From a virus: a DNA stretch of 27,754 nt. Of the stretch, positions 380-18,950 are shown piece after piece. The translations under genes were made by a program, and so were the position numbers. The stretch spans positions 1 through 27,754 of the IMG/VR virus record IMGVR_UViG_3300025112_000142. One strand, 5' to 3'. Position 1 is the stretch's first letter. Each line of letters starts with the position of its first letter. A model generated the notes under the pieces. That model did not search any database, was not told the DNA's origin, and saw nothing but the letters and a program-made list of their open reading frames with translations.

Positions 380-1648
380 TTACCCCGCCACCCCTTGCCA
401 CCACTGGGGCTGGTCGCTGTTGTGATAAAACGACAATCTTGGTTCTGTCTCGGTCAGAAACACGTTAAAACCGCGCTCACATAGCCAGGCATGCCAGCGC
501 TCCAACGCTTCGAGAATCTGACGCTCTGCATACGTGTGAATGTAGGTACGGTCGAGCTTCGATAGCGCATGGTTCAACAGCAGCTCACCGGCCAGATACT
601 CCACCCCCAAATCAGCCCACGTTGTACGGGCCAGCTTACGCAGGTCATGGGAATGCCACCGCGCACCGCTGGCACTCACCACTAGATCAAACACGGCTGA
701 ACGGGATAGCGGCTTACCCTTCGATGCACCTGGGAACAGATACACGCCCCGGTAACCATTGGCTTGCTGATAAGCGCGGTAACGGGTTAGCAGCGTCACG
801 GCCATGGGCGTTAACGGCAGGCGGTGTTGTCGCTTTGATTTTGTGTTGTCGGTGGGGATCGTCCAGGTGCGCGCTTCCAGATCGAACTGAGGCCACTTCG
901 CTAAACGTGTCTCCCCTATGCGGGTGCCAAACAGCAGCATTAACAACAGCAGGAAACACCCCGGCGGCTCGCACGAACGCAAGGCGCGTATCACCTCGGG
1001 CACATCAGCAGCGGTCAGCGCCCCCGCCTTAGCTGGGGTTTTCGCGTCGATGAAATCACCCACATTCACGCCTGCGAAGGGGTCAGCATCCAACAGGTTC
1101 AGCTTTCGGGCCTGCTTAAACGCGGCTTTGATCACCCCGAAAATCAGGCGAACGTACGCAACGGAATAATGCTCTTGCAGCGGCCATACCAACCCGCTAT
1201 CGATAGACGCAGGCGTAATGCCCGCCAGCGGCTGGGCACCGAACAGGGGCAATAGGTGCCGATTAACGGCGGTTTTGATCGATGATTTTCGAGTAGCGGA
1301 TAAACGGCCATGGGAAGCCGAACGGTCACGATACCAACACAGCAGGTCAGCCACGGTTTCCCACGCATCGACACCCACCGGCCCCGCCGGATCAAGCGCC
1401 AGCTTGGCCTCCAGCTCAGGCAACCGCGCCAGCAATGCGCGGGTGGTCAGCTCCGGGTAATTGCCCACCCGATGCCAATGGCCACGCCCACCCGCATAGC
1501 GCACCACGTACCAGCTGGCACGCTCACGGGAAGCATGAAAGCGCACCCGCACCGGGTAGCGCGGGTCGCGTAACTGGAAAATATCAGGGTCAGGCAGGTG
1601 CCGCTTAATCGCAGCATCAGACAGGGTAACAGCGAGGGTTTTAGGCAT
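380..1648 (-). CDS. int: Tyrosine recombinase (phage integrase)
   Basis: A 422-residue site-specific recombinase that would integrate and excise the element. The C-terminal catalytic domain shows the tyrosine-recombinase set: Arg in FGTRIGETR, the SHDLRK box (His-x-x-Arg), the second His in LLLNHALSK and the nucleophilic Tyr in RTYIHTY. The N-terminal half holds an arm-binding-like region and a SAM-like core-binding domain. I chose the ATG at 1648, which has GGAG 9 bases upstream; a TTG 15 bases further upstream would add five residues. A CCCCC/GGGGG hairpin (1674-1687) lies in the leader, and the 8-bp box array at 1710-1749 sits in the promoter region, so int is probably controlled by the box-binding protein. 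No attachment-site core was identified. Confidence 0.93.
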   Translation of the reverse strand: MPKTLAVTLSDAAIKRHLPDPDIFQLRDPRYPVRVRFHASRERASWYVVRYAGGRGHWHRVGNYPELTTRALLARLPELEAKLALDPAGPVGVDAWETVADLLCWYRDRSASHGRLSATRKSSIKTAVNRHLLPLFGAQPLAGITPASIDSGLVWPLQEHYSVAYVRLIFGVIKAAFKQARKLNLLDADPFAGVNVGDFIDAKTPAKAGALTAADVPEVIRALRSCEPPGCFLLLLMLLFGTRIGETRLAKWPQFDLEARTWTIPTDNTKSKRQHRLPLTPMAVTLLTRYRAYQQANGYRGVYLFPGASKGKPLSRSAVFDLVVSASGARWHSHDLRKLARTTWADLGVEYLAGELLLNHALSKLDRTYIHTYAERQILEALERWHAWLCERGFNVFLTETEPRLSFYHNSDQPQWWQGVAG

Positions 1649-1709
1649 TGGCTCAAACTCCAAGACAGCAACGCCCCCGCTCGGGGGTCAATGCGCCGGG
1701 CTGAGCCGT

Positions 1710-3806: not shown

Positions 3807-4363
3807 TCGACGGCCTCTCTGAGTCGTTGGGCGCGATGCGCCTGCAAAATGTCGTGCAACACGGTCACCTTGGCTGCATCGCCCTGACGTAACGCCGCCT
3901 CGACTGCCGCGCTCATATCCCCCACGGTCACGCGGGAAACGCACCAGCGGGCGAAATAGCGCAGGTTATCGGGGTGGTTCGCCACGTGGGGCGGGTAAGC
4001 CAGATCATTGATAAACCACGCCGCCCACTGCTCGGCGCGGTGATAAAGGGTGTCATCGGTGGGTGCCTGGGCAGGGTCTGCGCGTTCAAGCGTCGGGCAA
4101 TGCACCGTCAGCGCTTCGCCGTCGTCCTCAACGATCAGCAGCCCCTGCTCCTGATAGAACGCCATAAACTCACGGGCGCTATCGTCGTCGGCCTGCATCA
4201 AATCGCCCCACGCCACGTAGGTTTTTTGTACCGGCCCGGTAGCGGCGGCTAGGGTTTCCAGCACAAGCAAATAACGGGCATAGCCAATCAACCCATACTC
4301 AGCCGCCACGGTGGCCACGCCCTCACTGTGCGCCAACCCGGCAGGATGAACGAACGCGCTCAC
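3797..4363 (-). CDS. DnaT/O-like phage replication protein
   Basis: 188 residues. The N-terminal 75 residues resemble the winged-helix of phage replisome organisers (AAEYGLIGYARYLLVLE, then WGDLMQADDDSAREFMAFYQEQGLL). The C-terminal part (EQWAAWFINDLAYPPHVANHPDNLRYFARWC) is a helical segment reminiscent of the DnaT/DnaB-loader type. It would recruit host helicase to phage DNA. The GTG at 4361-4363 overlaps the Cro-like stop as GTGA. The role is inferred from fold pattern and from its place right after the Cro-like gene, as in lambdoid O/P operons; a purely regulatory winged-helix protein cannot be excluded. Confidence 0.5.
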   Translation of the reverse strand: MSAFVHPAGLAHSEGVATVAAEYGLIGYARYLLVLETLAAATGPVQKTYVAWGDLMQADDDSAREFMAFYQEQGLLIVEDDGEALTVHCPTLERADPAQAPTDDTLYHRAEQWAAWFINDLAYPPHVANHPDNLRYFARWCVSRVTVGDMSAAVEAALRQGDAAKVTVLHDILQAHRAQRLREAVECY

Positions 4364-4775: not shown

Positions 4776-5429
4776 ATGTCACAGCAAAGCGACAGGCAGG
4801 ACAAAAAAGAACTCATCGCGCAGCGCCTTGTAGAAGTGCGCAAGCACCTGGGGTGGTCGATCCGCGATGCAGTGGAAGCCCTCGGCTACGTGCGTTCCCG
4901 CTATACGAACTGGGAACTCGGCATACGCATGCCCGGCTATCAGGAATTAGAAGACATTGGCAACGTAACCGGCTGCAACCCCGGCTATTTTGTCGGCTGG
5001 ACAAACCGCATGATCGACAGCAGCTACGTCGTGCTAGACCGCACCACGGTTAAAACCCGTGGCGGCTCGATCACCGTGCAAAACGCCACCGATGTAGCCG
5101 CCTACCGCGACGACTACCTAGCCGAAAAAGGGCTAAAGCCCAGCAGTATTATCACCGTCAAAGCCGAAGATGACGCCATGGAAGGGGTCATTAGCAAGGG
5201 CGATTTAGCCCTGATCGACATGAGCCGCAAGCCCGATGCCGTGCGCGACCTGTTCGCCATCCTCGTGGGTGATCGTATCTGGCTGCGCTGGATACGCCCG
5301 GAAATCAACGGCAGCTACACCATGAGCGCCGAAAACAGCCACCAATACCCGGATGAAACCCTCACCACCGAGCAGCTACAACAGCTCAACATCATCGGAC
5401 GCGTCGCCATCATCGAGCACGAACGCTAA
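4776..5429 (+). CDS. CI-type repressor with inactive S24 domain
   Basis: 217 residues. A helix-turn-helix occupies about 12-65 (RDAVEALGYVRSRYTNWELG) and a LexA/CI-type C-terminal domain about 105-217 (VISKGDLALID, ILVGDRIWLRW, YTMSAEN, IIGRVAI). It should maintain lysogeny by binding the ACAC-N5-GTGT operators around it. The autoproteolytic dyad is missing: where the family has Asp-Ser-Met-Glu this protein has DDAME (Ala134), and at the LexA Ser-to-Lys spacing of 37 residues there is Arg171. No Ala-Gly cleavage pair is evident in the linker. It should therefore not self-cleave upon RecA activation, and induction probably relies on an antirepressor such as the ORF6N protein at 9322. A purine-rich ribosome site precedes the ATG. 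Confidence 0.9.
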   Translation: MSQQSDRQDKKELIAQRLVEVRKHLGWSIRDAVEALGYVRSRYTNWELGIRMPGYQELEDIGNVTGCNPGYFVGWTNRMIDSSYVVLDRTTVKTRGGSITVQNATDVAAYRDDYLAEKGLKPSSIITVKAEDDAMEGVISKGDLALIDMSRKPDAVRDLFAILVGDRIWLRWIRPEINGSYTMSAENSHQYPDETLTTEQLQQLNIIGRVAIIEHER

Positions 5430-5813: not shown

Positions 5814-6207
5814 CACCACCCCATGGCGCGACGACGACGCCCTAACCCAGCCCGGCCAAGCCCTCAGCGAGCAAGAGCTAGCCCACCTGCTCGCCCTCGC
5901 CAACGGCAACGCCCCCAGCGCCATTGCCGCCATCAACGGCACCAGCCGCGCCCAACAGCAGCAGCTAGAAAGCAGCCTGCGGGCCAAGCTCGGCGCGTTC
6001 AGCAAAGCGCACATCATCACCCGCGCGTTCGTGCTGGGCGTGCTGCTGCCTCGCTGCCTCACCGTGCTACTGATCGTCGCCACACTCGGCAATGGAGCCC
6101 AACAAGATGCCATCGCCCAGCGCCTACCCCGCCGCCCCACGCAAACCGCCAGCGCCCGCCTAATGCGTACTCAGCGGGGCAGTAGCGCAGGGGGTCGCCG
6201 CACATGA
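5806..6207 (+). CDS. LuxR-type HTH phage regulator
   Basis: 133 residues. Residues 18-80 match the LuxR/GerE helix-turn-helix: ALSEQELAHLLALANG, AIAAINGTSRAQQQQLESSL, then RAKLGAFSKAHIITRAFVLG, which follow the LS-x-x-E, recognition-helix and KLG-x-x-S-R-A pattern of that fold. The tail holds a short hydrophobic segment (CLTVLLIVATLG) and a basic end. It probably regulates phage genes; its target is unknown. The ATG at 5806 overlaps the previous stop, and the gene ends in an ATGA overlap with the next. Confidence 0.7.
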   Translation: MTNTTPWRDDDALTQPGQALSEQELAHLLALANGNAPSAIAAINGTSRAQQQQLESSLRAKLGAFSKAHIITRAFVLGVLLPRCLTVLLIVATLGNGAQQDAIAQRLPRRPTQTASARLMRTQRGSSAGGRRT

Positions 6208-6506
6208 AACCGCACATCCTCACAGGCCCGCGCCGCAGGCACTGCCGCTGCCGCGTCTGTCGCGGGCGGCAAGTGAAAGCGAAACACCCGGACGACTACC
6301 AGCGCCGCATCCGCTGCAAACACTGCGGCCAATTCAACACGCTGGCAGTAGACAAATGGGCCGATAACCGGGGCTGGCGAAAGTACACATGCTACTGCGA
6401 CGGCTACCACTTCCCGCACCGCATCCGCTCGGAATTCTGTTTTGAAAACCCACACTACGGCGACCACGAAGAACGCCGGTTAACCGCTTACGGGGTGATG
6501 GCATGA
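6204..6506 (+). CDS. Zinc-ribbon phage protein
   Basis: 100 residues with eight Cys in a metal-binding layout: HCRCRVC near the start, CKHC in the middle, then CYC and a late Cys, with two nearby His. Basic N-terminus (GPRRRH). Such two-zinc ribbons usually bind nucleic acid or act as adaptor domains. Coupled to both neighbours by ATGA overlaps. Confidence 0.65.
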   Translation: MKPHILTGPRRRHCRCRVCRGRQVKAKHPDDYQRRIRCKHCGQFNTLAVDKWADNRGWRKYTCYCDGYHFPHRIRSEFCFENPHYGDHEERRLTAYGVMA

Positions 6507-7018
6507 AAATTATGGCGACCGACCTACCACTAAGCCACTGGCAGCGCATTGCCGAACAAAACGGCATTCAGCGCAGAACGTTTCTCTATCGCCTGAAAAC
6601 CATGGACGCGAAAAAAGCCGCCACCAAGCCACTCAAAAAAGGCGGCATAAAGCCCATCGCCACCAGCAAGCGCCAAAAAAGCCTAGCCGCCGGGCTAGAT
6701 GAATGCGCCCTAAGCCGCTACCGCCGCGAACACCCCGAAAGCCAGCTAAGCGACGACGACGCCCTAGCCCTACTGCAAGCGCGCAAAGCCAAGCTGCAAA
6801 ACACCCTACGCGAACGCGCCCTTGCAGCAGGGCTAAGCCCCCAGCTGGTGTATCACCGCATTAGCCGCAACTGGCCGCTAGATAAAGCACTCAACACCCC
6901 GCCCATGCCCACCAGCCACGCGGCCCGCATCGGCGGCAAAGCCCGCGCCCAGCAAAAGCGCGAACGCCGCCAGCAGCGCCTCCAGCAGGCAGCGTTAAAT
7001 AACGCTAGCACGCTATAA
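6503..7018 (+). CDS. HTH-rich basic phage protein
   Basis: 171 residues. Two helix-turn-helix-like segments: HWQRIAEQNGIQRRTFLYRL near the N-terminus and ERALAAGLSPQLVYHRISRN at about 105-125, the latter followed by WPLDKALNTP, a pattern seen in phage HTH proteins. The C-terminus is strongly basic (KARAQQKRERRQQRL). Likely a DNA-binding regulator or nucleoid-like protein. Starts in an ATGA overlap with the zinc-ribbon gene; its stop codon lies inside box array 3. Confidence 0.6.
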   Translation: MKIMATDLPLSHWQRIAEQNGIQRRTFLYRLKTMDAKKAATKPLKKGGIKPIATSKRQKSLAAGLDECALSRYRREHPESQLSDDDALALLQARKAKLQNTLRERALAAGLSPQLVYHRISRNWPLDKALNTPPMPTSHAARIGGKARAQQKRERRQQRLQQAALNNASTL

Positions 7019-7049: not shown

Positions 7050-8198
7050 ATGTGGTTTACCAACATCACCATTTACCAGCTCCACAACGCCCCAGCGATC
7101 GACAGCATAACGCTGCATGAAACGCTGCAAGCAGAAGCCGCCAAGCCGTTAGGCAATACCGATGCCAAGCGCCACGGCTGGACACCCCCAGCAGGCCGCG
7201 CCAGCAACGCCTATCTGCACGAAAGCCAAGGCCACCGCCTGCTCAGCATGCTCAAACAGCAACGCATGCTGCCACCCAAAGTGGTGAAAGCAGCGGTAGA
7301 GGAAAAGGCAGCGGAGGTCGAAGCCAACGAAGGCCGCAAGGTCACGCGCAAAGAAAAAACCGCCTTCAAAGAACAGATCACCGAGGAGCTGCTACCCCGC
7401 GCCTTTATCGATAGCATCAAAATCGACGCATGGTGGGACGTAGAAAAAAACCGCATCATCATCAACAGCGGCAGCCGCGCCCGCTGCGAAGAGCTGTTAG
7501 ACCTGCTACGCGCAACCCTCGGCAGCCTCAAAGCCACCCCGCTCAGCACCCAAACGCTACCCATCCGCGCCATGACCACCTGGGTAAGCGACGCCCAAAG
7601 CCGACCCGCCAACCTGCAGCTAGGCGACAAAGCCACGCTCAAAGCCAAAGGCGACGACGGCAAAATAGCCGCCACGCAAGTGGATCTCGACAGCGACGAA
7701 ATACAGCAGCTACTCGAAAGCGGGCGGCAAGCCACCAACCTCGCCATCACCATCGATGACCGCGTCAGCGGCGTACTCACCGACACCCTACAGCTCAAAA
7801 GCCTGCGCTTTAGCGACCAGCTGATCGAGCAAGCCGACCACGCCGACGATGTCGACGACGCCATCGCCCGGCTGGAAAGCGACTTTTTCCTCATGGCCCA
7901 CGCCCTAAGCGACACGCTGGACAGCCTCATTCACATGCTGGGCGGTGAAACCCAGCGCAGCGAAACCGGCACCCGCCCCGACGACAGCCACCCCGGCGAA
8001 CAGATCGGCAGCTTCGAAGAAACCGACCCGCTACTGAAAGAAGCCATCGCGCTGGTAAAACGAACCGCAAACGGCAAACCCACCGTCAACACTCTGCAGC
8101 GGGCTCTAAAAATCGGCTACAACCGCGCCACACGACTACAAGGGCTGCTCATGGAACAAGGACACATTGCCAACCCCTACGGGCAGCCCACCCCATGA
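7050..8198 (+). CDS. rdgC: RdgC fused to an FtsK-gamma DNA-reading domain
   Basis: 382 residues. The first 300 or so are RdgC, a toroidal double-strand DNA-binding protein that restrains RecA: MWFTNITIYQL start, LPRAFIDSIKIDAWWD, LPIRAMTTW, IDDRVSGVLTDTLQLKSLRFSD. After an acidic linker (about 295-325) comes a winged helix from residue 326 that matches FtsK gamma: DPLLKEAIALV, LQRALKIGYNRATRL, MEQGHIANPYG, including the YNRAxR motif that contacts KOPS sequences. E. coli RdgC is about 300 residues with no such tail. The fusion could load RdgC at KOPS-like or phage-specific sites. It sits behind an 8-bp box array and is followed by a coupled zinc-ribbon gene. Confidence 0.88.
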   Translation: MWFTNITIYQLHNAPAIDSITLHETLQAEAAKPLGNTDAKRHGWTPPAGRASNAYLHESQGHRLLSMLKQQRMLPPKVVKAAVEEKAAEVEANEGRKVTRKEKTAFKEQITEELLPRAFIDSIKIDAWWDVEKNRIIINSGSRARCEELLDLLRATLGSLKATPLSTQTLPIRAMTTWVSDAQSRPANLQLGDKATLKAKGDDGKIAATQVDLDSDEIQQLLESGRQATNLAITIDDRVSGVLTDTLQLKSLRFSDQLIEQADHADDVDDAIARLESDFFLMAHALSDTLDSLIHMLGGETQRSETGTRPDDSHPGEQIGSFEETDPLLKEAIALVKRTANGKPTVNTLQRALKIGYNRATRLQGLLMEQGHIANPYGQPTP

Positions 8199-8335
8199 AC
8201 TACCGCTGCTACAACCCCAAATGCGACCAGGGCAATACCCCCGGCTGGATGCTAGGCGCTAACGCCATTTGCCCCCGGTGCGGCCACTGGCTCACCCGCC
8301 AGCCCAACGAAAACGCCAGCGTTAAAAAACGCTAG
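8195..8335 (+). CDS. 46-residue zinc-ribbon protein
   Basis: Starts MNYRCYNPKCDQG and contains a second pair ICPRCGHW, giving a four-Cys zinc ribbon (C-x4-C and C-x2-C). Coupled to rdgC by ATGA. The stop lies within box array 4. Likely a small nucleic-acid or protein adaptor; no named family. Confidence 0.65.
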   Translation: MNYRCYNPKCDQGNTPGWMLGANAICPRCGHWLTRQPNENASVKKR

Positions 8336-8495: not shown

Positions 8496-8737
8496 TCATC
8501 GACAACCGCGCCAAAAACGCCCAACGCATCCCCTGCAAAGAGTTTCAAGGCGAATGCCGCATGTGCCAAAGCGGGTTTATTGCCCGCAGCGGGGTATGCT
8601 CGGGCGTCAACCCTGACACCGCCAGCCCGCCCGACTGCCTGCGGGACGAACTGCCAGAACACCTCTGCCAGCCCAACGGCCTACCGCTGGGATGGGGTAA
8701 ATTCACGCAGGACAGCGCCAGCGAGGCCAGCCAATGA
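8492..8737 (+). CDS. Cys-rich small protein
   Basis: 81 residues with six Cys (15, 22, 25, 36, 49, 59): PCKEFQGECRMC, GVCSG, PPDCL, HLCQ. The spacing suggests a metal-binding or disulphide-rich fold. Start chosen at 8492 (ATGA overlap with the membrane-protein gene) instead of an upstream ATG that would read through that gene. Unknown function. Confidence 0.6.
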   Translation: MIIDNRAKNAQRIPCKEFQGECRMCQSGFIARSGVCSGVNPDTASPPDCLRDELPEHLCQPNGLPLGWGKFTQDSASEASQ

Positions 8738-9162
8738 GCGCCACATTCTGCACGTCCGAAAATCGGACGCACAAAAGCGACGACGAAAAACGTTGCCACC
8801 TAGCAGCACCAACCCAAGCCATTGATTTTAAAAGGTGGCACGAAATTCGTGCTACCGAAAAACAGACGCATCTTATTGATATTAAGAGATTGTCCGAAAT
8901 CCGGACAAACGCATCAATAGGCTATGTTACTGATTTAATTAGATTGGACGTATTGCGTCCAAACAAACTATCGATGCAACCCATTGATAATAAAAGCGAG
9001 TCCGAAATTCGGACTCGCTTCAAAACACCCTTACGCCAACGTAATGCACCATTGACCCCCACCCGCCCTAGCGCTACTCTGCCCGAAGTCGCTGCAAAAT
9101 CAGCGACCGGGTTTAGCAGCTCAACGGACATTGGCGCACAAGCGCCCCCAATCATCGTGTAG
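8734..9162 (+). CDS. Repeat protein encoded by a 54-bp hairpin array
   Basis: 142 residues if translated. It starts in an ATGA overlap with the previous gene. Residues 30-101 are four 18-residue repeats built on [I/T]D-x-x-[R/S]-x3-[I/L]R (for example IDFKRWHEIRAT, IDIKRLSEIRTN, TDLIRLDVLRPN, IDNKSESEIRTR), preceded by a partial copy CTSENRT. Each repeat contains a DNA palindrome coding for the E-I-R core. Downstream sequence resembles the ash/C4 leader of phage antirepressor operons, so this may be the phage ash-type reading frame. Because 54 is divisible by three, an open frame is less persuasive than usual; the array may function as DNA or RNA instead. Confidence 0.45.
   Translation: MSATFCTSENRTHKSDDEKRCHLAAPTQAIDFKRWHEIRATEKQTHLIDIKRLSEIRTNASIGYVTDLIRLDVLRPNKLSMQPIDNKSESEIRTRFKTPLRQRNAPLTPTRPSATLPEVAAKSATGFSSSTDIGAQAPPIIV
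8753..9018. repeat. Array of five palindromes, 54-bp period
   Basis: Palindromes at 8753-8769, 8834-8856, 8890-8908, 8944-8962 and 8996-9018. The last four have centres exactly 54 bp apart (8845, 8899, 8953, 9007). Arms differ in sequence (GCACGAA, TTGTCCG, TTGGACG, GCGAGTCCGAA) yet each matches its own partner, so structure is kept by paired changes. Units also share a spacer motif ATTGATWWTAA starting at 8821, 8875, 8929 (ACTGAT) and 8983. Confidence 0.85.
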
Positions 9163-9164
9163 GC

Positions 9165-9321
9165 GCTATTTTTGTGCCCGCGTGATGCACTATGGCGGGC
9201 CGTGCGTGGGGCGCTTCGGCGCGCCGGGTTTCCAATGTCCCCGGTCTGCTAACCCGCGTACGGTTCGCCTCCATCGTTTAGCAGCGGTAGGCGAACTCCA
9301 ACAGACTTGGAGAATCGCAAC
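9165..9321 (+). ncRNA. C4-antisense-RNA-like leader of the antirepressor gene
   Basis: A GC-rich, structured leader between the repeat gene and the antirepressor. It has the hallmark block CACTATGGCGGGCCGTGCG, a UUCG-capped hairpin and CCGGG/CCCGG pairing, similar to leaders upstream of ash/ant genes in enterobacterial prophages and to the P1/P4 C4 RNA. Two mutually exclusive pairings are visible: CTGCTAA (9246-9252) with TTAGCAG (9278-9284), and GTTCGCCT (9263-9270) with AGGCGAAC (9289-9296), the latter close to the ribosome site GGAG. In P1/P4 the C4 RNA is cotranscribed with ant and shuts off its expression. Assignment is from memory of the motif. Confidence 0.55.
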
Positions 9322-10104
9322 ATGAAAACACCCACCATTTCAGTTTCTGGCGTTACCCTTCCCTATATCGAGTATCAGCAGCAGCCTGTTGTCACTTTTG
9401 CCATGATCGACGGCGTACATTCAAAGTCTAAAGCAACAGCACGGCGCTCTTTTCAGCGCAACAAAAAGCATTTTATTGAGGGTGAAGACTTCTATGCCCT
9501 TGATTCTGAAAGGTTGGGACAAATTGTCACTACCTATCCTGACCTGTTTCCGGCGGCTACTACACGCCTAACGCTCTTCACCGAAACCGGCTACCTCATG
9601 CTGGTCAAATCGTTTACCGACGACCTCGCTTGGCAAGTGCAGCGCCAGCTCGTCAAAAGCTATTTCCGCGTAAAAGGGGCGATGCAGCCCACCGCCGCCG
9701 AGCCCATCCCCACGCCCATCGACCACCGCCAGCGCGAACAGCTCACCAACGCGGCTAACGCCGTGTTTCGCAATTTCCACGGCATGCGCCAAAGCGCCAC
9801 CGGCTGGTTTTACAACGGCGTGCGAACCGACTACTGCCTAAAACGCATCGAAGATTTAAGCCAGGACGACTTCCCGGCAGTCATGGAACGCCTGCAAGCC
9901 CTACGCCCCAAGGTGCGCCAATACGAAGATTTTAGGTATGACTTTCAACAGTCGTTTTTAAAAGAGGTCGTAGGCGAAGGCCAGCCGTACACGGCATGGA
10001 TCAGCAAGCTCGCCGGTGGCCAACACCACATCGGCCAACGCCCCAACTGGAAAGCCATCGCCAAGCAAGTGCTAATCCACAACGGCCTACTCACCAAACA
10101 GTAA
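9322..10104 (+). CDS. ORF6N-domain phage antirepressor
   Basis: 260 residues. The N-terminal 110 match the ORF6N/Rha-type DNA-binding domain of phage antirepressors: VVTFAMIDGVHSKSKATARR, FIEGEDFYAL, LFTETGYLMLVKSFTDDLAW, VQRQLVKSYFRV. The C-terminal part (about 140-260) is a helical effector region with QRPNWKAIAKQVLIHNGL. It should relieve CI repression, which matters here because CI lacks the self-cleavage dyad. It follows a C4-like leader RNA, as Ant does in P1 and P4. The start at 9322 follows GGAG. Confidence 0.85.
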   Translation: MKTPTISVSGVTLPYIEYQQQPVVTFAMIDGVHSKSKATARRSFQRNKKHFIEGEDFYALDSERLGQIVTTYPDLFPAATTRLTLFTETGYLMLVKSFTDDLAWQVQRQLVKSYFRVKGAMQPTAAEPIPTPIDHRQREQLTNAANAVFRNFHGMRQSATGWFYNGVRTDYCLKRIEDLSQDDFPAVMERLQALRPKVRQYEDFRYDFQQSFLKEVVGEGQPYTAWISKLAGGQHHIGQRPNWKAIAKQVLIHNGLLTKQ

Positions 10105-17264: not shown

Positions 17265-17900
17265 TCAATCCCACTCAGTCGACCAGTCCAGCGTAAGCGG
17301 ATCAGTCCCCGCCGCTACCGCGTCAACGTGCTGCCCTTCCAGCTCGATCAGCGCGGCGCGGCGTTGGCCGATTTGGCGTAGCGCGGTTTCTACATCCGAT
17401 ACCGGGTGCTGGGCGTGGTGTTTGCCTGCGCTGTCTTTCCAGCTCGCAAACGTGGTCATGCCTGCGTCAGCGGCGGCGGTGAGCGCTTCTTGCATTGCTT
17501 GCCGATTGTCCGCGCTGCCGTCGTAATGTACGCCGTTGAGGGTGACGCCAAGAGCCTCAGCGGCCTTGCGCTGGGCCTTTACCTGCGGCTCCACCTGGGC
17601 GCGGTGGTAGTCGAGCAATTTAGCGGCATCGAAAAACGCGGTGTCGTCGCTTTCAGTTGTGCCGTGCTGCACGTAAACGGCTGCGTCATGGGTGCTCAGG
17701 CCTGCATCTTTAATCGCGTCTAGCCGCTGTTGCTGCTCTGGCGTTAGCGTTAACGGCTCTATCTGCAAATCAGACAAATGCCCGTGCTGGGCAATTAGTT
17801 GCTCAAAGTAGCGGCGGTCGTCTGCGTAGTGTGTGCGCTCAACATCGTTATCGTAAAAGCGTACTTTGTACTGCTTGGGGGTCATATCGTCGCGTAGCAT
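17265..17900 (-). CDS. Tail-fibre-associated protein with DUF4376-like C-terminus
   Basis: 211 residues. The N-terminus (MTPKQYKVRFYDNDVERTHY) resembles short phage tail proteins; the C-terminal 100 residues have the DUF4376 pattern seen in tail-fibre assembly or tail-fibre-linked proteins: LGVTLNGVHYDGSADNRQAM, LTAAADAG, WKDSAGKHH, VSDVETALRQIGQRR, LIELEGQHVDAV. The start at 17900 has GAGG 6 bases upstream and overlaps the 3' end of the reverse transcriptase. It is the last gene of the tail/DGR operon and may help fold or attach the variable tail protein. Confidence 0.65.
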   Translation of the reverse strand: MLRDDMTPKQYKVRFYDNDVERTHYADDRRYFEQLIAQHGHLSDLQIEPLTLTPEQQQRLDAIKDAGLSTHDAAVYVQHGTTESDDTAFFDAAKLLDYHRAQVEPQVKAQRKAAEALGVTLNGVHYDGSADNRQAMQEALTAAADAGMTTFASWKDSAGKHHAQHPVSDVETALRQIGQRRAALIELEGQHVDAVAAGTDPLTLDWSTEWD

Positions 17901-18940
17901 AGTGGCCTCACGTGGAAACGTTGGTTGGTGAAATATATGTAGCGGGTGCGCTGGCAGGCGGTGGTAATGAATCGCTCGCACTCTGCGAGCTGGGCATAGC
18001 TGTACCAGCTGTTAAGCGACTGCAGCGCCTCGTTGGGCGTTAAGCGAAACGCGTGCAGCAGCCGATCAAACGCGCCTAGGCGCTTAATGATCCGGGATTT
18101 AGCTTTAGAGGTTAGCGTGATGCGTGCCGGGGTGATGCGATACCCCAGCGCTTCCAGCCCTTGCTGCGGGCGCAGTGGGCGGATAAAGCATTTGCGGTCT
18201 GGAAAAGTCAGGCGTATTACGTCGCGCCCAAAGGCGCGGACAGCCGCCAGCACATCGCCCGCATGGGCTTTGCCGTCAACGATCATTATGAGATCGTCGG
18301 CATAGCGCACGTAATGCCGCACGCCAAGCCGTCGCTTTATATGCTGATCAATTTCGTTCATTAGCACATTGGCTAACAGTTGAGACGTTAAATTACCCAG
18401 CGGCAAGCCAATATCATTAGGCGAGCTATCGATAATCTTGTCTAAGAGCGCAAGCGTTTTAGCGCAAGTTATCTTTTTCCTTATAATGCCTTTAACAACA
18501 TCGTGATTAATGCTGTAAAAGAACTTTTGAACGTCGGCCTTTATAATCCAGGGGTCGGCGTAATGTCTTGACGCGCTGCGCATGTGCCGCTGAACTTGCC
18601 TTACCGCTTTATGATTGCCTTTGTTTCTTATGCAGGCGTAGCTGTCGTGTATAAACTTGGGCTCGTAAAAATCGCGAAGCGTTTCGTTAATGGCATGCTG
18701 AACAATCTTGTCTCGATACCTGGGGGCATATATCACGCGCTCTTTAGGCTCAAACACCACGAACTCTTCGTAATCTTCGGGCGTGTAATGGCCGGAGGCT
18801 ACTTCACGCCTTAGCCTCTCCAGGTTTTCTGTTTCGTTGGCAGCAAAGCGTATAGCGGCGGCTTTGAATTTCGGGCTAGCGGTTTGGGTTTTGCGGTACG
18901 CGGCGTAAAAATTGGCTTCTGAAACAATGCGCTTAAACAT
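17882..18940 (-). CDS. DGR reverse transcriptase
   Basis: 352 residues. Group-II-like reverse transcriptase with the features of the DGR clade: ERVIYAPRYRDKIVQHAI (motifs 1-2), KADVQKFF with catalytic Asp (about residue 136), IGLPLGNLTSQLLANVLMNE (about 177-196; the GNLTSQ form is characteristic of DGR enzymes) and HYVRYADDLI with the YADD catalytic box (about 213-216). No maturase or endonuclease domain, and a length normal for DGRs. It copies the template-repeat RNA with adenine mutagenesis and delivers the cDNA to the variable repeat. ATG at 18940 chosen because AAGG lies at good distance; an ATG six bases upstream is too close to it. A terminator lies between template repeat and this gene. 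Confidence 0.95.
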   Translation of the reverse strand: MFKRIVSEANFYAAYRKTQTASPKFKAAAIRFAANETENLERLRREVASGHYTPEDYEEFVVFEPKERVIYAPRYRDKIVQHAINETLRDFYEPKFIHDSYACIRNKGNHKAVRQVQRHMRSASRHYADPWIIKADVQKFFYSINHDVVKGIIRKKITCAKTLALLDKIIDSSPNDIGLPLGNLTSQLLANVLMNEIDQHIKRRLGVRHYVRYADDLIMIVDGKAHAGDVLAAVRAFGRDVIRLTFPDRKCFIRPLRPQQGLEALGYRITPARITLTSKAKSRIIKRLGAFDRLLHAFRLTPNEALQSLNSWYSYAQLAECERFITTACQRTRYIYFTNQRFHVRPLCYATI

Positions 18941-18950
18941 TGCCATCCTT

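Follow-up and report, generated by a model that had tools for sequence, protein, structure and literature searches.

Introduction

The role of the RecA antagonist RdgC is poorly understood; the gamma domain of FtsK is a well-studied sequence reader. In this study we focus on a viral gene that appears to join the two. It lies in a linear IMG/VR virus record of 27,754 bp, the whole of which was analysed and is called the window below. The original prediction, made from the letters of the DNA, held that a RecA-restraining protein carries here a C-terminal winged helix that keeps the KOPS-reading motif, and that RdgC is thereby directed to oriented sites on the phage or host chromosome. The locus thus raises two questions: whether the fusion is genuine, and what a gamma domain could bring to RdgC.

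An RdgC core and a gamma domain in one protein

The join between RdgC and FtsK gamma is real, and a single protein carries both. Residues 1-300 match the Pfam RdgC profile over its positions 1-298 of 298 (289.1 bits against a cut-off of 25, E 5.1e-86), an assignment matched by NCBIfam and PHROGs, and residues 323-377 match FtsK_gamma (39.7 bits against 30.6, E 4e-10), so that both predicted domains, the second expected at residues 326-378, lie above their cut-offs. Against the sequences of the PDB, the protein found RdgC (2owl/2owy) and then FtsK gamma (2j5p, E 6.4e-5, and 2ve8). The Pfam search of the 382 residues gave RdgC and gamma only, and no motor domain of an FtsK/SpoIIIE translocase. 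The window has a single copy of the IGYNRA codon pattern, which 0 of 100 shuffles produced.

The AlphaFold2 model (38-row alignment, mean pLDDT 89.6) displays the RdgC fold, an unstructured linker, and gamma helices at residues 329-338, 346-353 and 357-369; it contains no strand past residue 369, and the beta-wing of the winged helix is therefore missing. With Foldseek, the best match of the model was E. coli RdgC (TM 0.94 by target), and the XerD-FtsK gamma structure 5dcf came at rank 17 (E 0.03, probability 1.00). The predicted GYNRAxR is found within QRALKIGYNRATR (Table 1). As for its being a KOPS-reading motif, the claim stands in part: GYNRAxR is kept together with R362, the equivalent of the KOPS-specific R1300 of E. 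coli FtsK, but G365 and M368 stand in place of E1303 and E1306, and the domain has a shortened wing.

Table 1. Features of the window discussed in the text; L007 is a near-identical phage contig.
Feature	Coordinates	Strand	Basis or details
Tyrosine integrase	380..1663	-	
CI/S24-like repressor	4776..5429	+	
100-aa protein (phrog_17384), two genes upstream of rdgC-gamma	6204..6506	+	
rdgC-gamma gene	7050..8198	+	one open frame, ATG 7050, stop 8198, 382 aa
RdgC core, residues 1-300	7050..7949	+	Pfam PF04381; model vs 2owl TM 0.94 by target
Linker, residues 301-322	7950..8015	+	pLDDT <50 at 307-323
FtsK-gamma type helix-turn-helix domain, residues 323-377, wing shortened	8016..8180	+	Pfam PF09397; AlphaFold2 helices
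Recognition motif QRALKIGYNRATR, residues 350-362	8097..8135	+	sequence; alignment to FtsK gamma
Hypervariable gamma cassette	8001..8200	+	64%, 75% identity to L007 in two 100-bp intervals, within 93.0% and 97.2% blocks
C4 antisense RNA	9188..9275	+	Rfam RF01695, 66.7 bits
ORF6N antirepressor gene, directly after C4 RNA	9307-10104		
ParA-like partition ATPase, phage-plasmid marker	12068..12784	+	
Reverse transcriptase (RVT_1; PADLOC RT)	17882-18946	-	

The element that carries the gene

The phage context expected for the fusion was borne out by the integrase, repressor, antirepressor and C4 RNA of the window, and a partition gene, parA, stands alongside these phage genes. The order of C4 RNA and ORF6N is like that in the immI region of P1/P7. 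Long genes occupy the minus strand. No near DNA match to positions 1-25000 was found in the phage collection. The nearest named relative is the Halomonas qaidamensis 'plasmid' NZ_CP080628, complete, circular and 45,853 bp long, whose RdgC-gamma is 71% identical to that of the window and which has common blocks with it in the same order. Since this circular plasmid encodes capsid, portal and terminase as well as the shared blocks, the lineage of the window is probably a phage-plasmid.

Two further observations concern this region. Positions 8745-9030, overlapping an ORF at 8734-9162 just upstream of the C4 RNA, hold about five palindromes that can form hairpins, arrayed with a repeat period of 54 bp; their stems vary yet stay symmetric (folding z -8.3, equalled by 0 of 200 shuffles). 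The array is present in the related contig L008 and has no match in L007 and L016; a tie to gamma type was not seen, as the window and L008 have the array in common and differ in gamma. Furthermore, a four-helix-bundle gene adjoins the reverse transcriptase in the H. qaidamensis relative, which makes it possible that the reverse transcriptase of the window is part of a diversity-generating retroelement.

Recurrence of the fusion

The RdgC-gamma fusion recurs in many phages and plasmids. Full-length matches were found in phages of Pseudomonas, Vibrio and Achromobacter, and on plasmids of Pseudomonas, Vogesella, Burkholderia, Variovorax and Chromobacterium, and gamma was read directly in loci L004-L006 and L011-L013. 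Two RdgC-driven scans, with RdgC-only alignments built mostly from gamma-bearing members, gave gamma on 15 of 55 and 20 of 73 distinct RdgC proteins. A scan of viral contigs with the fusion alignment confirmed 346 relatives, and among the best 80 of these 346 gamma was present on 71 of 72 distinct RdgC proteins, a figure selected for the motif because the fusion-alignment scans demanded IGYNR(A)-like codons. Several scans consist of the best 80 matches, and the three counts comprise RdgC matches of at least 200 positions. In cells, RdgC was found in 33 of 94 genomes of one class, and 31 of 33 RdgC frames examined stop 1-26 residues past the core; the remaining two, from Serratia and Janthinobacterium, carry gamma, and each of these genomes also has a gamma-less RdgC. 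A gut-phage match (H73) proved to be an ordinary FtsK and was rejected.

On the P. aeruginosa plasmid pF023 (L011:3001-4155), a 384-aa RdgC-gamma frame is annotated in its 3' part only (3904-4155), as 'DNA translocase FtsK'. The fusion had been regarded as uncharacterised, and indeed no published description of an RdgC-gamma fusion was found in the literature searched, which covers few subscription journals.

Exchange of gamma between close relatives

The window and L007 have a stretch of about 9 kb in common, in blocks 93.0% and 97.2% identical. Identity falls below 85% in 9 of 93 100-bp intervals, namely those at 7101, 7801, 8001 (64%) and 8101 (75%), four at 8701-9100, and 11801; it drops at gamma and then recovers. 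Among the window, L007 and L008, the RdgC cores are 93-94% identical in amino acids with dS of 0.22-0.29, and the gamma domains are 54-58% identical with dS of 0.8-1.3. This jump in synonymous change at gamma argues for replacement, and not only for fast change of the protein. In another lineage, L067 and L089 are 84-100% identical on both sides and 53-80% identical at the linker and gamma only.

Moreover, gamma types recur on different cores. That of L007 is also found on the core of L016, both with the motif QRHFKIGYNRAQRLQEYLI, and that of L008 is found on L181 and L183, with the common motif KIAYDRAQQLQA[LR]LE. The L016 core is 61-64% identical to the cores of the window, L007 and L008, and those of L181 and L183 are about 95% identical to it. 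Gamma thus behaves as a cassette, one and the same type being combined with different RdgC cores. The 130 distinct RdgC-gamma proteins include 15 pairs, from about six lineages, with cores more than 85% identical and gamma domains more than 20 points lower. In 72 pairs with cores 95-100% identical the median gamma identity is 96%; exchange is therefore occasional, gamma being as conserved as the core in most close pairs.

Mosaicism extends beyond gamma, to positions 8701-9100 against L007 and to the whole rdgC gene against L016, which is about 65-84% identical to that of the window, with an upstream backbone at about 87-100%. The window, L007, L008 and L016 are single contigs each. A locus co-varying with gamma type was sought in the 149 of 188 50-bp intervals comparable in the window, L007 and L016. 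In 2 of the 149, the identity between L007 and L016 exceeded that of either to the window by at least 12 points: gamma itself and 6251-6300, within the phrog_17384 gene, where L007 and L016 are 98% alike and the window 80-82%. The window stood near L007 in 35 of these intervals and near L016 in 5; the 35 are pooled over all places, and a swapped rdgC in L016 would yield such a pattern. Positions 6251-6300 offer a weak lead to a site that may change with gamma type.

Gain, loss and replacement of gamma

On a tree of 145 representative RdgC sequences, 82 of which carry gamma (matches of at least 270 positions), about 25 changes of gamma state are needed, at least 17 of them forced by well-supported branches. 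Pairs of RdgC that are 98.7%, 95.4% and 95.0% identical differ in the presence of gamma; in the first, where the figure refers to the core, phage BR228a (L004) has RdgC-gamma and L227 an RdgC without it. L229, which has gamma, is 97.7% identical to L227 up to its position 6913, and the match resumes at 7179 against 7961 in L227; between these matching flanks, the linker-gamma segment 6914-7179 of L229 faces the NA37/NdpA gene of L227. In L243, L244, L273 and L284, a gamma-less RdgC is followed by an NA37 gene that itself ends in gamma (by Pfam for L243). Thus, in F116/H66-like phages, gamma is replaced by, or located on, an adjacent gene for the NA37 nucleoid protein. RdgC and YejK are both listed among nucleoid fractions (PMC3082553).

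In the A4 scan, an adjacent NA37 gene on the same strand accompanies none of the 26 loci with gamma and 20 of the 54 without it (Fisher p 1.7e-4, relatedness ignored), and in three gamma-bearing loci NA37 lies on the opposite strand, 3.3-3.7 kb off. This and the other Fisher figures given here overstate the evidence, because related phages are not independent. Gamma was present elsewhere in 3 of 50 gamma-less records, each time on the adjacent NA37, and the other 47 had none at all, which indicates that the module is dispensable.

What gamma may bring to RdgC

The reading that we prefer, to which we give a probability of about one half, is that the RdgC ring bears an exchangeable targeting module, a helix-turn-helix, with gamma serving as an address to a DNA site or a nucleoprotein partner. 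RdgC-gamma would be the phage or phage-plasmid version of the ring-forming, DNA-encircling RdgC, tethered through a flexible linker to a helix-turn-helix of the FtsK-gamma type. Gamma would confer targeting, bringing an otherwise sequence-blind ring to a particular site or partner that would differ between alleles. By analogy with E. coli RdgC, as described in PMC11077077, the ring at its address might act on RecA and limit RecA-type recombination on the replicating phage-plasmid. A role of the module in nucleoid association of the phage's recombination proteins is possible, since NA37 can take its place.

A broader proposal, which we advance tentatively, is that gamma is a specificity cassette shuffled under diversifying selection, in a manner that can be likened to the recognition domains of type I restriction enzymes. 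The RdgC ring would be kept and gamma traded or swapped for NA37, alleles would address element-specific sites or partners, and the module would be traded among the many other phage DNA proteins that carry it. A DNA-pattern scan with IGYNRA codons returned 119 loci (L301-L419), 110 of them with a gamma frame at E <1e-5: 50 on RdgC and 60 on other proteins. These 60 fall into 16 partner clusters and four nearly bare gammas, with gamma at the N-terminus, in the middle or at the C-terminus. The largest partner family is phrog_6576 (32 loci), and among the partners that can be named are NA37, a beta-clamp-like protein (weak match), VapE-like helicases and a DUF1441 protein.

Alternatively, gamma could be a general DNA-affinity tail only, its divergence due to weak constraint and ordinary phage mosaicism. 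The shortened wing in the window, the frequent gain and loss of gamma and its absence from many relatives would agree with this. We nevertheless consider it unlikely: of 121 distinct RdgC-gamma domains, all retain Q1288 and 119 retain R1289, at columns outside the retrieval pattern of the viral scans, and a mere tail does not sit well with the synonymous jump at gamma and the recurrence of the same types on different cores.

The fusion had also been tentatively linked to recombination, dimer resolution or integration, and gamma could contact the host XerD and activate XerCD to either end on the phage-plasmid, like XafT of TLC-phi. Taking XerD contacts and KOPS-specific residues from PMC5052618 (Table 1 therein for the contacts) and PMC2680272, the contact set Q1288, R1289, R/K1292, I1293, G1294 and N1296 is kept in the window (Q350, R351, K354, I355, G356, N358) and in 95 of 121 RdgC-gamma domains, a conservation partly selected because parts of the set overlap the retrieval patterns. 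The nine residues RQFRIGYNR are enough in E. coli, and in FtsK gamma the residues that contact XerD are among those that contact DNA (PMC5052618), so that this conservation does not separate a XerD role from a DNA role. L008 and L181 carry A1294 and D1296. No dif-like site was found in the window at up to 3 mismatches; the best hits in the window, L007, L016, L008, L181, L183 and L010 have 6-8 mismatches to the dif consensus in 22 arm positions. No dif-like site was found in both pieces of the full H. qaidamensis plasmid either, nor any XerD-arm site in the window and the relatives scanned. The ParA of the window and the circular plasmid as its closest named relative would suit a role in dimer resolution, but ParA is not clearly commoner with gamma outside the RdgC clade of the window (8 of 17 loci with gamma against 9 of 25 without, A4 sets); inside it the counts are 5 of 14 against 0 of 25, from few lineages. 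An overall link between gamma and ParA was rejected (13 of 50 gamma against 9 of 50 gamma-less records). We therefore regard action through XerD as decidedly unlikely.

It is also improbable that gamma reads KOPS-like GGGNAGGG on host or phage DNA and thereby orients RdgC, as originally predicted. Apart from GYNRAxR and R362 in the window, what speaks for it is the full triad R1300, E/D1303 and E1306, kept in 75 of 121 distinct RdgC-gamma domains; among the FtsK matches listed, which were retrieved with QRx[LF][KRT]IGYNR, it is kept in 72 of 74. At single positions, R1300 is R in 73 of 74 listed FtsK matches against 86 of 121 RdgC-gamma domains (Fisher 1.9e-7, relatedness ignored), and E1306 is E in 73 of 74 against 99 of 121 (Fisher 1.6e-4, relatedness ignored); columns 1300, 1303 and 1306 lie outside all retrieval patterns. 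None of the window, L007, L008, L010, L016 and L181 has the whole triad, and L008 and L181 are without the N1296 and R1300 equivalents.

The DNA itself does not bear out direction to oriented KOPS sites. The window has 6 copies of GGGNAGGG, 2 on plus and 4 on minus, against a shuffle mean of 4.07 (at least as many in 23 of 100 shuffles); over 36 kb, the closest relative has 7 against 3.55 (at least as many in 7 of 100). Neither shows significant enrichment or polarity. Pooled observed/expected ratios are 1.12 in 92 gamma-bearing and 0.98 in 94 gamma-less RdgC loci. The G-rich strand is favoured in both sets, 181 to 51 with gamma and 175 to 30 without, and polarity is therefore not tied to gamma. 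For GGGCAGGG alone, the ratio of 1.23 in gamma-bearing against 0.80 in gamma-less loci favours the KOPS reading. A search of the window and its relatives for a gamma site gave no outstanding 8-mer, the largest z being 3.4. As an observation in its own right, GGGNAGGG shows a strong strand bias in RdgC phages whether or not they carry gamma, more than a first-order model accounts for.

Finally, that gamma mimics FtsK gamma and interferes with host chromosome segregation or division during infection is highly improbable, since, despite its presence on 16 clusters of other phage proteins and in four nearly bare copies, several of the nameable partners are DNA-metabolism proteins and the window gamma differs from FtsK gamma at E1303 and E1306.

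Comparison with known systems

Natural pairs that differ mainly in gamma (BR228a-like against H66-like P. aeruginosa phages, the window against L007, and L067 against L089) make testable both the use of RdgC to a phage and gamma specificities other than KOPS. The fusion also matters for annotation, as several plasmid and phage copies are called 'DNA translocase FtsK' or 'DNA translocase' though they have no motor.

E. coli RdgC (2owl, 2owy) has the same whole core and fold, without the linker and gamma. Phage-borne RdgC is known as HrdC of P1/P7 and as the RdgC of Halomonas phage QHHSV-1; in both, the match to the window protein ends with the core, which is 56% identical in QHHSV-1, whose gamma-less protein has 310 residues. 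Conversely, FtsK gamma (2j5p, 2ve8, 5dcf) has QR...IGYNRAxR in common with the window gamma, which scores above the Pfam cut-off, but the window protein has no motor, E1303 and E1306 are replaced, the wing is shortened and RdgC is attached.

XafT of TLC-phi is gamma-like and is not known to be an RdgC fusion. It is a phage factor tied to XerD biology (named in PMC9765430); the window element differs in that no dif-like site was found in it. A phage fusion with gamma has been published, in contrast to RdgC-gamma, for which the search described above found no paper: the small terminase of Sam46/Sam112, from a Bacillus host, has an FtsK_gamma domain like the window protein, but at the N-terminus and with a terminase as partner, and its authors call the role of phage FtsK_gamma genes unknown (PMC8190038). 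Lastly, haloarchaeal and Bacillus 'RdgC histone' operons contain an RdgC-like gene with only 18% stated identity to RdgC (PMC11390915); there, as here, the RdgC fold is coupled to a second DNA-binding protein, but through separate genes and with a histone as the partner.
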